From the NCBI RefSeq assembly GCF_000336675.1, contig NZ_AOMB01000030.1, forward strand, positions 16,713 to 62,066: 45,354 bases of DNA, written 5' to 3'. Under the pieces are notes generated by a model. It searched no databases. It saw nothing but the letters and a program-made list of their open reading frames with translations, and was not told the origin of the DNA. Source of the DNA: Halococcus hamelinensis 100A6. GTDB taxonomy: Archaea; Halobacteriota; Halobacteria; Halobacteriales; Halococcaceae. Made by a program: the position numbers and the translations under genes. Below are positions 19,972 to 35,594 of this stretch, in pieces. Numbering within the stretch: position 1 is the first letter of the stretch; each line of letters begins with the position of its first letter.

Positions 19972-19985
19972 CCTCCGTGTGGAGG
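19972..19985. repeat. Small hairpin in the hutU leader
   Basis: CCTCC-GTGT-GGAGG forms a five-pair stem with a tetraloop about 40-50 nt before the hutU start. On the predicted transcript it would fall at the very 5' end, so it may mark the initiation region rather than act as a regulator. Confidence 0.3.
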
Positions 19986-19988
19986 ACC

Positions 19989-19994
19989 GTTTAT
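19989..19994 (-). promoter_or_regulatory. hutU: TATA box of the hut operon
   Basis: Read toward hutU the sequence is ATAAAC. It lies about 56 nt before the hutU ATG, implying a leader of roughly 30 nt. The 16-bp palindrome sits directly upstream of it. Confidence 0.5.
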
Positions 19995-19998
19995 CCCT

Positions 19999-20014
19999 TC
20001 TACCGCGCGGTAGA
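19999..20014. promoter_or_regulatory. Perfect 16-bp palindrome between hutU and its regulator
   Basis: TCTACCGCGCGGTAGA is identical to its own reverse complement. It is flanked on each side by a TATA element (19989-19994 toward hutU, 20017-20021 toward the regulator), a few bases upstream of both. A dimeric activator or repressor bound here could control both directions. The adjacent HTH_10 protein is the obvious candidate. Confidence 0.6.
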
Positions 20015-20016
20015 CG

Positions 20017-20021
20017 TTTAT
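20017..20021 (+). promoter_or_regulatory. TATA box of the HTH_10 regulator
   Basis: TTTAT ends 24 nt before the ATG at 20045, consistent with a leaderless transcript. Confidence 0.45.
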
Positions 20022-20044
20022 GCGACGTGGGCGCTTCGTGCGGT

Positions 20045-20698
20045 ATGCACGAGGCGACCTTCCGTATCGAGGGGGATGGAGCGTACGCCGCCGCGACCGC
20101 CGGCACGGATGCGCGCGTCGAGCTCTGGTGCAACGACCACTGCGACCTCCTCCACGTCACCGGCAGCGCGAGCGACGAGATACTCGCCCACGTCCGCGAG
20201 GAGGTCGGCGTGCAAGAGCGCCTCCAGCGACCGGACGAACTGGTGGTGATCACCGGCGACTGCCTGCAACGCCACGAGGGGGACCTCATCGAGACCTACC
20301 TCGCCCGCCACGACTGCCTGCTCTTGCCACCTCTGCGCTACGCCCGCGGCGCGAAGTCCTGTCGCGTGCTCGCGCTCGACCCGGCCAACCTCACGGCGTG
20401 CTATCGCGACCTCGTCACGGCGGGGTTCTCGGTCTCGGTCGAGCGAACGCGCGAGATCGAGGCGGTCACCCACGACGCGCCGTTGCTCACCCTCGACGGC
20501 ATCCTCCCCGACCTCTCGACACGCCAGCGCGAGACCCTCGCGATCGCCCACGAGTTCGGGTACTACGAGATCCCGCGGGAGACCACGACGGCCGCCATCG
20601 CCAGTGAAGTCGGTGTCGAACGACGGACCGCCGAGGAACACCTCCGGCGTGCGGAGAACAAGTTGGTCGCGGCGATGATCGAGTACGTGTGCGCCTAG
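20045..20698 (+). CDS. HTH_10 (bacterio-opsin activator type) regulator, probably of hut
   Basis: 217 residues. The N-terminal part resembles the sensor-like half of haloarchaeal Bat-family proteins. The C-terminal 55 residues (LSTRQRETLAIAHEFGYYEIPRETT, then AIASEVGVERRTAEEHLRRAENKLV) are the HTH_10 DNA-binding domain (PF04967). Divergent placement from hutUGIH, with a perfect palindrome between, suggests that it senses histidine or urocanate and activates the operon; the ligand is not shown. The ATG at 20045 fits the leaderless promoter; an upstream start at 19979 would run through the palindrome. It ends in CTAG shared with a possible minus-strand gene. Confidence 0.85.
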   Translation: MHEATFRIEGDGAYAAATAGTDARVELWCNDHCDLLHVTGSASDEILAHVREEVGVQERLQRPDELVVITGDCLQRHEGDLIETYLARHDCLLLPPLRYARGAKSCRVLALDPANLTACYRDLVTAGFSVSVERTREIEAVTHDAPLLTLDGILPDLSTRQRETLAIAHEFGYYEIPRETTTAAIASEVGVERRTAEEHLRRAENKLVAAMIEYVCA

Positions 20699-24383: not shown

Positions 24384-24554
24384 ATGAGCGACGCCGACAC
24401 CTCCGGAGCGTGTGACCACGAAGACCTGTGGAAAGAGGGCGTGATAGACGACGGCGGCAACACGGTGCGGGTGTGGAGCTGTCGGGACTGCGATGCGTGG
24501 TTCAAGGAACGACTCCCGGGGGAGACGTTCGGCGGCTGGATCGACGTGGAGTGA
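24384..24554 (+). CDS. 56-residue Cys-rich microprotein (CxH/CxxC)
   Basis: It begins MSDADTSGACDHEDLW and carries Cys10, His12, Cys33 and Cys36 (WSCRDCDAWF), a plausible zinc site of the ribbon type. The end GGWIDVE is intact. A short AT-rich stretch (GATATC, about 24351-24356) lies about 30 nt before the ATG. I know no family name; small zinc proteins of this size are common in haloarchaea and some affect gene expression or motility. It could also be an unusual open frame, but the four ligand residues argue for a real gene. Confidence 0.6.
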   Translation: MSDADTSGACDHEDLWKEGVIDDGGNTVRVWSCRDCDAWFKERLPGETFGGWIDVE

Positions 24555-32521: not shown

Positions 32522-32668
32522 TCATTCGGGAGTTTCGTGGTCCGGTTTTTTGAGCCCACTCGTGTCGAGACGGCCGCGGGCTGAACGACTTCGGAGAACG
32601 ACCGTATCGGGAGCGACGGCTCCGCTCCATTCGAGGGGAACGTACTTGCAGTTCGGACACTCGACCAT
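32522..32668 (-). CDS. 48-residue CxxC microprotein
   Basis: It begins MVECPNCKYVPLEWSG and then has a basic middle (LRSRSARGRLD) and an acidic end (DHETPE). Only one CxxC pair (Cys4, Cys7) is present, so zinc would need two copies or an additional ligand. It is convergent with the DUF1616 gene, with 10 bp between. I give it modest confidence because it could be a chance frame. Confidence 0.4.
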   Translation of the reverse strand: MVECPNCKYVPLEWSGAVAPDTVVLRSRSARGRLDTSGLKKPDHETPE

Positions 32669-32991
32669 GTCCCGATCCCATCCCGTCGTCGACCGGTCGG
32701 TGATAGGAGACGGTTCTGTCGCACCGTTCGCGGGCCGTCTTTGGCACCGACTCCCCGTACGGGTGAGTCGATGAAGTGCCACCTGGTTGCAGTAACGGTC
32801 GACAGCACCCGACGATTCGAAACGAGGTGCCGGTTCGAGCGTTCGGTGTGGAGTGGCGGGAGTCGGTTCGGCGTTGGCGTTCGAACCGCTCTACCGCGAC
32901 AGGGGATCGACCGCCATCACCGGAACTTTCGGACTGTCTTCGAGTGGATCCACGCGTTCGGAGCCGTCGTCGGGATCGAACGGGGTCGTGG
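32669..32991. other. 323-bp stretch with no convincing gene
   Basis: Frames are open on both strands as expected for GC-rich DNA, but none shows a family motif, a hydrophobic pattern or a start with a promoter. One frame on the plus strand (32771 to about 33034) has Cys and Arg in abundance but no recognisable structure. The region probably holds the promoter of the minus-strand microprotein at 32668. Confidence 0.5.
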
Positions 32992-33792
32992 CTATGCAGT
33001 CGGTTGCTCCTTCGGAGCGCGGATCTGCTCGTAGAAGGCGACGCTGTACGCGGCCGTGAACGCACCGATGATACCGGTCACTATCGCGAGGCCGACCGAG
33101 AGAACGGCGGCGATAACGAGGAGATCGTTCACGTCGTACAGCGTCGGGAGCGTGCCGATGATCCCGCCAACGGTCCCGAACACCGCCGAGAACACGACGA
33201 TGATGGCCATGTAGCCGAGCGTGCTGAGTTTGTTCCCCCAGACGACGCGGATGCTCTTTTTGAACCCGCCAACGGCACCTTTTCCGTCGAGGACGATCGC
33301 CTGGCCGAAGAACTGGACGAAAAAGGAGAAGGCGAACAACAACACGAACAGCAGCAGTACGATACCCACGAGCGCGAGCAGCGAGCCCGCACCCGCACCA
33401 CCGCTCTGCCCGATCCCCACGGCGAAGAACCCGCCGACTCCGCCGACGACGGCGATAGCGACGAAGTAGACGACCATCGCGACTCCCAGCAGCAGGTATG
33501 CCCCGAATATCGAGACGTAGTTGGCCCGTCCTTCCCGAAGGAACGTCCGGAGACTCGTCTTTCCGTCGAGCGCTTCGGCGACCATTCCGACGATTCCCCC
33601 GAAGTAAAACGGCAGGACGAACACCAACACGAGCGAGAAGAGCCCCGACACGACCAGTCCGATATCCGTGGTGAGAGACGACGAGAGCAACTGCGGGATC
33701 TGGAGGAGCCCGAACAGGAGCGTGACGAGGATGATGACCGGGTTTCGTCTGACGGCGTCCACTGCCTCTCCGATCGCTGCTATCGCACCCAT
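32992..33792 (-). CDS. DUF7847-like polytopic membrane protein
   Basis: 266 residues with about six to eight membrane segments. It opens MGAIAAIGEAVDAVRRNPVIILVTLLFGLLQIP and has an internal amphipathic element (LDGKGAVGGFKKSIRVVWGNKL), the layout of a family whose relatives include the membrane domain of glycerophosphodiester phosphodiesterases and the DUF7847 group. It lacks any catalytic motif. A TATA-like TTTATTG element is about 25-30 bp ahead of its start. Role unknown. Confidence 0.7.
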   Translation of the reverse strand: MGAIAAIGEAVDAVRRNPVIILVTLLFGLLQIPQLLSSSLTTDIGLVVSGLFSLVLVFVLPFYFGGIVGMVAEALDGKTSLRTFLREGRANYVSIFGAYLLLGVAMVVYFVAIAVVGGVGGFFAVGIGQSGGAGAGSLLALVGIVLLLFVLLFAFSFFVQFFGQAIVLDGKGAVGGFKKSIRVVWGNKLSTLGYMAIIVVFSAVFGTVGGIIGTLPTLYDVNDLLVIAAVLSVGLAIVTGIIGAFTAAYSVAFYEQIRAPKEQPTA

Positions 33793-34007
33793 AACTCAAC
33801 GGGAAGTAGTCCCCCAATAAACGTTGTGTTCGCGTATCAGGTGATGTGGTTCCGGGACCAATCGTCCGTCGAAAGCCCCATCGTCCTGTGGGAGGCCACA
33901 CATCGTCGAAGCACGGACTCGCGAAGGGTTGGGAGTAACGTTCGGTTAAACGGTCCTCGCACGCGTCCCGTGCGAACCCTCATGGTTCTGTCTCCCGTAG
34001 TCCTCGG

Positions 34008-34127
34008 ATGTCTAAGATCACGTGTCCGAAGTGTGGCACCGAGTCCGCCTACGAAAAGCCGGCCGGGTCGCGGGACGACGGCGCTCTCACGTGCTGGAAG
34101 TGTGGGCACATCCTCCTCCTTCCGTAG
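34008..34127 (+). CDS. 39-residue zinc-ribbon microprotein
   Basis: Its sequence has CPKC at residues 6-9 and CWKC at 29-32, giving a complete four-Cys zinc ribbon with a 19-residue spacer (KCGTESAYEKPAGSRDD is the first part). It ends HILLLP. GTTAAAC-type AT-rich DNA lies about 60 bp before. Short haloarchaeal ribbon proteins of this kind are often skipped by gene finders because of size. The four Cys and the compact, intact frame make it likely to be real. Confidence 0.65.
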   Translation: MSKITCPKCGTESAYEKPAGSRDDGALTCWKCGHILLLP

Positions 34128-34211
34128 CATATCTCGTCCGGCCATCTCGTCGGCACTCCTCACACTCAGAAATTGCACGCGACCGACGGCCGGAGGAAGC
34201 CATCGTTCGCC

Positions 34212-34352
34212 TCAGAGCGTGAACGGCGGCAACAGAGCATCCCGCACCAAGGCGTGGCCGCATCTATCGCACTCCCACGCTATCCGTTCGCCACCGTCGA
34301 CCTCCGAAATGGTGTACATCTCGTGTCCGAAGAGGGCGCATTTGTATTGCAC
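34212..34352 (-). CDS. 46-residue zinc-binding microprotein with GTG start
   Basis: From the GTG at 34352 the protein begins VQYKCALFGHEMYTISEVD and contains Cys5, His10, Cys28, Cys31 and His34 (CDRCGHA), a plausible zinc site. An in-frame TAG stands just upstream, so the GTG is the only standard start that keeps Cys5. It lies between two other zinc-ribbon genes. It has no ATG that would give a full domain, and so is easily missed. I have no family name. Confidence 0.55.
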   Translation of the reverse strand: MQYKCALFGHEMYTISEVDGGERIAWECDRCGHALVRDALLPPFTL

Positions 34353-34539
34353 TACTATGCTCTACTCACAAGCAACGAAAACAAATGTGTGTCGGCTTTC
34401 CCCCGGTCGGATCTCGGGACCGAGGTCGTGATTCGACGGTGGTCGGAAGCCGAGACGTTTCGGCCGATACCACGCGCTCGTGCCGACCAGACCGAAGCCA
34501 CGATTCGGCGGCGGTCGGGGGATACACAGCCCGAAACGA

Positions 34540-34545
34540 TTATAC
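34540..34545 (+). promoter_or_regulatory. TATA box of the microprotein at 34569
   Basis: TTATAC lies 24-29 nt before the ATG at 34569, the spacing of a leaderless transcript. Confidence 0.5.
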
Positions 34546-34568
34546 TCGACGAGCCGAGCAACGCAGAC

Positions 34569-34679
34569 ATGGCGATGAGTTCGAACGAATCGCCGGTCGA
34601 GACGTGTGCTGAGTGTGGGGAAAGCGTGCTGGCAGCGTATCTCGACGACGACATTTGTCCAGCGTGCCGCAACGAGTGA
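34569..34679 (+). CDS. 36-residue double-CxxC microprotein
   Basis: It carries CAEC at residues 13-16 and CPAC at 30-33, a four-Cys zinc ribbon with 13 residues between, in an acidic context (LDDD). The ATG at 34569 fits the TATA box at 34540 for a leaderless transcript; a second ATG two codons later is possible. It is one of the smallest convincing genes in the window and belongs to the same type as the proteins at 24384 and 34008. Confidence 0.65.
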   Translation: MAMSSNESPVETCAECGESVLAAYLDDDICPACRNE

Positions 34680-34815
34680 GGACACGGTTTCGCAGCGCCA
34701 GTAGTTGTTCCACGTCTCGGATTCGTCTACTCTGTGACGGAATTCTCGTTGCGGAACACCGCGTTTTCGCTGTGAATCGGGAAAGAGTGGGCGGTGCTTG
34801 TCTAAATCGTCTCAG

Positions 34816-35514
34816 CTACATCGCATCCGGCGAAATCTGGATGTTGTAACTCGCGACCGCCGAAGGATCACTGGGAGCCATGATGCAGTCGAAAGTGAGC
34901 GACTCGCCGCTGGAGACACCCTCGGAGCTATCGCTCCCTTCGCCGATGCGGGTACCCTCTGAATCGTAGATCTGGGCGTTGATGAAGAGGAAATCAAAGT
35001 CCTGCTCCGCAGTGAGTTGCCCACGCACGCCGGTCGAGATCCCGCTATCCTCGTTGTACCATTCGCTCTCGTCGAGCGTTACGCCGTCCACAATATCTTG
35101 CTCGTCGAGCTCGATATCTCCGGAGGAACCGTCACTGTCGCCGCTAGAACCCTCGCTTTCGCTCGTTGCAGTCGAGTCGGAATCTTGCCCACTATCCGAA
35201 TCTTCGCTTTCGCTGGTCGCGGTGGAGTCGTCCTCGGAGTCCTCCTCATTCGAGGTCGACTCGCTGTCCTCGCCCTCACTGGTCGACATGGATGTCGACT
35301 CGCCGTCCTCACCGGAGGTGGACATCTCGGTCTCCTCGCTTCCACCCGAAGCCTCCGTGCTCTCACTGCCGCCGCTGGCTTCGGTGCTTTCGCTCCCGCC
35401 ATTGGAACCATTCCCACCGCTGCTACTGTTGTTGCCGCCCGTCTCACCGCTACATCCTGCGAGTCCAGCTCCTACTGCAATTCCAACCGCTGATATGTAC
35501 TTACGTCGGTGCAT
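34816..35514 (-). CDS. Lipoprotein with Ser/Glu/Gly-rich linker and FxLYD-like domain
   Basis: 232 residues. An N-terminal MHRRKYISAVG with RR motif and lipobox VGAGLAGC suggests Tat-type export and lipid anchoring. Residues about 25-130 are a low-complexity linker of Ser, Glu, Asp, Thr and Gly with repeated SESTEAS- and TSESED-type units. The last 95 residues form a compact domain (DGVTLDESEWYNEDSGISTGVRG to DPSAVASYNIQIS) resembling FxLYD domains. It would be held at the cell surface on a long acidic tether, as often seen in haloarchaea. No neighbour suggests a partner. Confidence 0.75.
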   Translation of the reverse strand: MHRRKYISAVGIAVGAGLAGCSGETGGNNSSSGGNGSNGGSESTEASGGSESTEASGGSEETEMSTSGEDGESTSMSTSEGEDSESTSNEEDSEDDSTATSESEDSDSGQDSDSTATSESEGSSGDSDGSSGDIELDEQDIVDGVTLDESEWYNEDSGISTGVRGQLTAEQDFDFLFINAQIYDSEGTRIGEGSDSSEGVSSGESLTFDCIMAPSDPSAVASYNIQISPDAM

Positions 35515-35565
35515 CAGGAATAAATATAGATTTAGTCGGGATAGTTCTTTGTTTTCCGACAACGT

Positions 35566-35594
35566 GAAACTCCGAGAAACTGACGAGGAGTTTC
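35566..35594. repeat. 8-bp inverted repeat between tRNA-Thr and the lipoprotein
   Basis: GAAACTCC (35566-35573) and GGAGTTTC (35587-35594) are perfect inverted copies with a 13-base loop. The site lies about 50 bp beyond the 3' end of the tRNA and upstream of the lipoprotein, so it may take part in termination or tRNA processing. Confidence 0.35.

Follow-up and report, generated by a model that had tools for sequence, protein, structure and literature searches.

Zinc-ligand microprotein genes of three families in a small-gene island of Halococcus hamelinensis: candidate accessory regulators beside one decayed gene

A 2.2-kb island in the genome of Halococcus hamelinensis 100A6 carries what are very probably three intact genes for Cys-rich microproteins, each from a different family, together with the decayed remnant of a fourth. 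The island lies in a window of 45,354 nucleotides (68% GC), which is the whole stretch of DNA analysed here, on contig C30 (NZ_AOMB01000030.1, positions 16,713 to 62,066). A first-pass annotation of this window had listed four small frames between 32522 and 34679, here numbered 1 to 4, and a fifth at 24384. The intact ones are frame 2 (family A, a C4 ribbon), frame 3 (family B, C3H) and frame 4 (family C, predicted to be a C4 hairpin and helix); frame 1 is the decayed one. Our tentative preference, held at a little below an even chance, is that the island is made up of accessory-regulator zinc microproteins of three families plus one decayed C4 gene. Such a role is favoured because the papers of Tarasov and colleagues link Bat homologues with small zinc fingers, and the case for it appears strongest for family C, whose members recurrently lie among other small zinc-ligand frames and, in some relatives, directly behind genes of Bat-type regulators.

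The gene status of the frames was assessed by comparison with the closest relative found, a genome of the same genus (G006; the window's own genome is G000). DNA identity between the two is 91-94% across most of the 17 kb compared, and 80-88% in 32960-35586. Frame 3 (89% identical in G006), frame 4 and the frame at 24384 (91% identical) retain all their zinc ligands there, and their ratios of nonsynonymous to synonymous substitution rates (dN/dS) are 0.22, 0.19 and 0.20, respectively. Each of the three has 11-13 changes, with probabilities of as few nonsynonymous changes as observed, or fewer, of 0.014, 0.016 and 0.014 (Fisher combined 3e-4). Lack of conservation had been named at the outset as what would speak against the frames; these three are conserved, and under purifying selection.

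Homology points the same way. Profiles A1, A2 and A3 represent families A (frame 2), B (frame 3) and C (frame 4). When each profile was rebuilt without the sequence under test and without its copy in G006, and six-frame segments of the window and of the G006 stretch L043 were searched, frame 2 was recovered at E 4.3e-10, frame 3 at 5.9e-13 and frame 4 at 9e-15. Frames 2, 3 and 4 and the frame at 24384 are, on these sequence comparisons, very probably genuine genes. The window has two frames of 25-75 amino acids with a strict CxxC..CxxC pattern, whereas 40 Markov-1 shuffles gave a mean of 0.025 and a maximum of one; such shuffles are a lenient control that does not imitate the shadow frames of coding strands. 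In a sample of 261,951 nucleotides from G000 (14 stretches) there are six strict frames, or one per 44 kb; this density is slightly low, as contigs C7 and C13, parts of which already served for their family members, were omitted and C7 would add two. The number of strict frames in the window is thus ordinary for this genome, while their tight grouping is not.

The four CxxC frames reported within the island had correct coordinates and lengths, but frame 1 is not a protein, one ligand pair of frame 3 is C-x4-H, and frame 4 starts later than was read. Of the three full four-ligand sites that had been claimed, the ligands are present in frames 2, 3 and 4, although those of frame 3 are not two CxxC pairs.

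Frame 2 (34008..34127, plus strand) encodes a predicted C4 zinc ribbon of 39 amino acids with two CxxC motifs. It has no counterpart at the matching place in G006, where the alignment shows a gap of about 260 nucleotides (33880..34141, ends approximate); whether this is a gain or a loss is not polarised. Its relatives lie at other sites in both genomes: family A includes two further pairs of orthologues between them, the strong relatives in G000 being on C40 and C13, and searches with the single sequence of frame 2 find relatives at E 1.5e-6 to 5.1e-4. Across the class, A1 matches at E 0.001 occur in at least 27 of 292 genomes, those outside the genus at 1.5e-4 or weaker. This count and those for the other families are lower bounds, with 24-25 first-look candidates scored in many of the 292 genomes. 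A1 also matches the intact G006 gene that corresponds to frame 1, but this match is circular, that sequence being a row of A1, and the rows of A2 and A3 likewise match their own models. The structure predicted for frame 2 from its single sequence has four strands, with a predicted local distance difference test score (pLDDT) of 82.5.

Frame 3 (34212..34352, minus strand) starts with GTG and encodes 46 amino acids with the ligands C5-x4-H10 and C28-x2-C31. Its relatives are found at C30:86778 and in G006, and A2 matches at E 0.001 occur in at least three of the 292 class genomes.

Frame 4 (34575..34679, plus strand) encodes a predicted C4 protein of 34 amino acids with two CxxC motifs. It had been read as 36 amino acids from an ATG at 34569; the start shared with G006 is placed at 34575 because the ATG at 34569 is ACG in that genome. 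A TATA-box-like TTATA (34540..34545, plus strand) lies 35 nucleotides 5' of the ATG at 34575. By the spacing rule of haloarchaeal promoters, this distance is compatible with a transcript that has no leader or almost none. The arrangement TTATA-N24-30-ATG occurs three times in the window against 0.12 expected. The leaderless TATA promoter suggested for frame 4 is therefore upheld at the level of sequence, the TTATA at 34540 being preserved in G006. A scan for sigma-70 promoters, which are not the right type here, gave nothing. From a two-sequence alignment, frame 4 is modelled as a hairpin followed by a short helix at the C-terminus (pLDDT 87.7). At E 0.001, A3 matches at least 14 of the 292 class genomes, with ten matches in G000, nine in G006 and five in a third genome, G007, some of them weak; from these matches, family C appears to be an expansion at the level of the lineage.

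The remaining member of the island is a decayed gene. In G006 its counterpart is an intact frame of 40 amino acids with a GTG start and two CxxC motifs (L043:13549-13671), in a different reading frame. The alignment and the translations place the remnant of this C4 zinc-ribbon gene in the window at 32627..32747 on the minus strand, with the low end mapped by hand. Compared with the G006 gene, the first Cys has become Arg, two nucleotides fewer put the remainder out of frame, and the stop codon is lost. Frame 1 as read (32522-32668, minus strand) gave 48 amino acids from an internal ATG, with a single CPNC; it is the second half of the remnant translated in the shifted frame and, judged from the alignment, not a protein. 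The ancestral state is not polarised, although the difference is more simply read as a loss on the side of the window. A listed Cys-rich microprotein can hence prove to be a frameshifted remnant, so that comparison with a close relative should come first and bench work after.

The grouping had been suggested to reflect a shared function or local duplication. Local duplication is unsupported because the three survivors fall into three different families by the held-out profiles, and it was rejected as the origin of the cluster. The best match across families links the profile of family C with frame 3 as it stands in G006, at E 0.018 (0.046 for the window copy), which is no better than generic zinc-knuckle likeness. 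An earlier proposal that frames 1 and 2 are paralogues was withdrawn: the G006 counterpart of frame 1 matches a family A profile without itself at E 0.011, and at 0.73 when frame 2 is omitted as well.

Clustering recurs around family C in other places. Within 1.5 kb on either side of 23 family C loci there are 20 further strict frames, against 1.6 expected from the G000 sample. Around nine family A loci there is one, against 0.64 expected; around five family B loci there are five, against 0.36, each of which lies at the locus in the window, at the corresponding locus of G006 or at a locus on C3 of G006. Neither the two loci of the 24384 frame nor seven control loci (0.49 expected) have any. 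When orthologues and tandem pairs were collapsed by hand, the 23 family C loci became 18 independent ones, and ten of these have a strict neighbour against about 1.2 expected (P 4e-8; 2e-5 at double density). If only neighbours outside family C are counted, the figure is seven of 18 (P 9e-5; 0.005 at double density). A density taken from a single genome is used here for several, and doubling it covers the omission of C7 and C13. Of two questionable neighbours, the one at L122, a Cys-rich frame that looks like chance, is among the 20 and outside the ten, while that at L126 is the tail of a longer open reading frame (ORF), without which the count is nine of 18. Frames of families B and C adjoin each other at two independent loci, in the window and at 365 kb on C3 of G006, where 0.012 (G000) and 0.015 (G006) would be expected. 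In the genome G004, the neighbour of one family C frame resembles family B chiefly through its motif (9.4 bits) and was left uncounted. The clustering around family C loci is therefore real, and the grouping in the window is more than chance, as the first-pass annotation had supposed. We found no published statement on the genomic clustering of such genes in an incomplete search, in which the word 'cluster' was absent from the main texts of PMC11241148 and PMC6562870 and none of the papers listed dealt with it in the title or the opening of the abstract.

At six of the 18 independent loci, an HTH_10 ORF was read as the gene that immediately precedes the family C frame on the same strand. On C24 of G007 the two overlap by four nucleotides and on C3 of G006 a short HTH_10 ORF directly abuts the family C frame, while the gap is 17 nucleotides on both C27 of G007 and C1 of G001 and about 170 nucleotides on C11 of G266; the sixth, on C23 of G007, is a decayed locus in which the HTH_10 ORF precedes the family C frame. 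Pfam searches find HTH_10 in each of the five intact upstream ORFs; four of these also have the BAT domain, in one case exactly at the cut-off. At three of the loci (C24 and C27 of G007, C1 of G001) an additional HTH_10 ORF and a DUF7563-type frame come before, DUF7563 having been scored for the G001 copy only. About 0.2 of 18 loci would be expected to show this adjacency, given at least 275 HTH_10 matches in 26.0 Mb of seven genomes and an assumed one gene per kb (P 2e-8; 5e-4 when alike cassettes count once). Without the decayed locus, the count is five of 18 (P 1e-6). An HTH_10 profile run over all 23 family C loci has matches at these six and at none of the others; five of the ORFs went into it, together with the regulator in the window, so that it partly overlaps the loci tested. 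Known partners are few among the dozens of CPxCG microproteins in haloarchaea; family C frames behind Bat-type genes, overlapping or abutting in two loci, have a concrete candidate partner.

On the preferred reading, the frames would be translated as single-domain accessory regulators. In each, a knuckle stabilised by bound zinc would dock on a transcription factor or on the basal transcription machinery, and the docked protein would tune its target promoters, a role of the kind proposed in Halobacterium for Brz, and for the zinc fingers linked to Boa, with Bat-type regulators. Family C, found directly behind such regulator ORFs in some other genomes of the genus and in one beyond it, is the best candidate for a Bat/HTH_10 partner. 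Frame 4 would then act in trans, as a lone copy served by a near-leaderless promoter of its own. A shared function of the cluster is favoured indirectly, by the recurrent clustering and the Bat-type neighbours in other genomes. It is tempting to go further and to regard family C as a modular, lineage-expanded class of Bat/HTH_10 partners, in which a cassette of a regulator and a hairpin-helix zinc protein of 34-47 amino acids is copied, decays and sheds solo genes such as frame 4, and the clusters are sites where these regulatory add-ons gather; this wider proposal is speculative and, in our judgement, rather unlikely.

Several observations weigh against the preferred reading. None of the six family C copies examined in G000 (in the window, two on C44, and on C7, C30:124656 and C3:27497) has an HTH_10 ORF directly upstream; the sole one found near the C3:27497 copy lies about 1.7 kb downstream. 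Frame 4 does not adjoin a Bat-type HTH_10 gene; of the HTH_10 genes observed in the window, the closest is at 19979-20698. The Bat link consists of six loci, and four of these, all within the genus, share a single type of cassette. Nor are HTH_10 genes rare: a clear HTH_10 ORF was seen at one of seven control loci (L041) and a weak match at another (L035). The families are patchy across the class, as the counts of at least 27, 3 and 14 of 292 genomes for A, B and C show. Fold searches with the models of frames 2 and 4 gave no match at E 0.001 or better. Finally, not all such proteins bind zinc: one report on Haloferax volcanii describes nine zinc sites among 14 purified C(P)XCG proteins (PMC11241148).

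It is also quite possible, if on balance improbable, that the genes are genuine and that nothing functional unites the cluster, small genes of fast turnover having gathered in an intergenic island that tolerates them. Their grouping with other zinc microproteins would then reflect which sites can take up genes of this sort. The three different families, the mixed strands, the decay of frame 1 and the lack of frame 2 at the G006 place would all be explained, as would the proximity of some family C-like copies to terminase and integrase genes (at C30:124656 and on C18 of G006) and the lack of Bat-type genes beside the G000 copies examined. Such an island would not by itself account for neighbours being enriched at family C loci and not at family A or control loci, nor for the specific order behind HTH_10 ORFs, with abutting or overlapping frames in two loci.

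A structural or translational role, in which the zinc ribbons would bind RNA polymerase or the ribosome in the manner of the HVO_2753-like proteins of archaeal ribosome structures, is improbable. The family A profile has weak matches to polymerase chains (E 0.0017-0.14), to eS27 (from 0.086) and to ribosome-bound HVO_2753-like chains (0.13 and 0.41), but these look like generic zinc-knuckle matches, the best match of all being the carrier protein LysW, and the narrow and patchy distribution is unlike that of core machinery. Chance open frames are very improbable as an explanation. The frames are short, lie in GC-rich DNA and match no curated family, as none of the five reaches a Pfam cut-off and none of frames 1-4, which the NCBIfam scan covered, reaches a cut-off there; yet the shuffles, the purifying selection and the held-out homology leave chance to account only for frame 1 as read.

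Some observations were made beside these subjects. The HTH_10 regulator at 19979-20698 (plus strand) has an HVO_A0563_N domain, and its neighbours resemble histidine-utilisation genes. Genes for the small and large terminase subunits follow closely behind a family C-like frame at C30:124656-124745 (L122 1495-1614), in a provirus-like stretch on the contig of the window. Two family C frames on C18 of G006 (L047 7663-9077), a contig of 24.7 kb, have an integrase gene (phrog_1) nearby. On C12 of G007 (L123), a family C-like frame with a frameshift was seen next to ORFs that we take to resemble gas vesicle genes. At about 6.9 kb of L060 (C44 of G000), the reading of a helicase-like ORF crosses an ambiguous base and an unusual motif, which points to an artefact of the assembly or of an adapter. 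Close to the island, the minus-strand ORF at 34816-35533 is Ser/Glu/Gly-rich and lipoprotein-like, and its repetitive part is very different in the corresponding ORF of G006.

The fifth frame (24384..24554, plus strand) encodes 56 amino acids with the ligands C-x-H and C-x2-C (C10/H12 and C33/C36) and belongs to a separate family with no Pfam match. Among 18 genomes of the taxonomic family, it is present in G000 and G006; among the matches listed class-wide, it appears in two of 155 genomes, G000 and, weakly, G141, with G006 not in those rows.

A viral origin of the families was considered and not adopted. Scans of viral contigs gave 169 pattern matches for family B, none of which was confirmed. 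For family A there was a single contig of 43% GC with genes that by eye resemble portal and terminase genes, judged not to be haloarchaeal, and for family C also a single contig, in a neighbourhood that matches the G004 region. A scan of genome contigs gave one partial match, in Haloarchaeobius sp. FL176, where a pattern search showed no frame.

Among known proteins, frame 2 comes closest to the LysW-like zinc ribbon, which is the nearest solved fold to its model (template modelling score 0.75 over 36 columns, at an insignificant fold E of 0.16) and the best match of the family A profile (E 5.7e-4). The carrier C-terminus of LysW is not present in frame 2. The nearest folds to the model of frame 4, likewise insignificant, are FmdE-like and PHD-type zinc modules, and DUF7573 (PF24458) scores 21.8 bits against this frame, below its gathering score of 30.2. 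Family B matches the start of DUF1660 (PF07874, a prophage protein), at the site of the C-x4-H pair, but its best member reaches 18.7 bits (E 0.0025), and frame 3 itself 14.4 bits, under the cut-off of 21.4.

CPxCG proteins have been defined as having fewer than 100 amino acids and two Cys/His pairs 7-40 residues apart, with 2-3 residues between the ligands of a pair and at least one pair CPxCG-like (PMC2253796). Frames 2 and 4 agree with this definition, and frame 3 does so loosely, with a CPxCG-like CDRCG and a C-x4-H spacing of four instead of 2-3. Haloferax volcanii holds 49 CPxCG-related small zinc finger proteins of under 70 amino acids (PMC11241148), and 12 of 16 deletions of zinc-finger microproteins in this species gave phenotypes (PMC6562870). 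The frames of the island resemble these proteins in their small size and two ligand pairs, at least one of them CPxCG-like. They differ in that families A, B and C score below the curated models, in the C-x4-H pair of frame 3, and in that their zinc binding is predicted.

The closest parallel in arrangement is found in Halobacterium salinarum. Both Bat homologues of this species are accompanied by genes for small CPxCG zinc fingers, and cooperation of Bat and Brz at the protein level has been raised (Tarasov 2008, PMC2253796); later work describes cooperation of Bat, Brz and Brb, and small zinc-finger genes beside boa2 and boa4 (Tarasov 2011, PMC3184054). Family C differs from Brz in sequence, where there is no meaningful match: frame 2 gives 12.5 bits against the cut-off of 100 of the Brz model (NF041795, PF23454; E 0.14), a 65-amino-acid neighbour of the C7 copy gives E 0.13, and frames 3 and 4 do not match the Brz models. 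Frame 4, moreover, has no adjoining Bat gene. The likeness to Brz and Brb is that of a small zinc protein associated with a Bat-type regulator, as family C frames adjoin such ORFs in some relatives. The same holds for OE2447F and OE3131F, beside boa4 and boa2, which were compared by arrangement (PMC2253796 and PMC3184054). In linking family C with Bat-type genes, the present analysis founds no new idea; it extends to a further family the suggestion that Tarasov and colleagues published for two Halobacterium genes.

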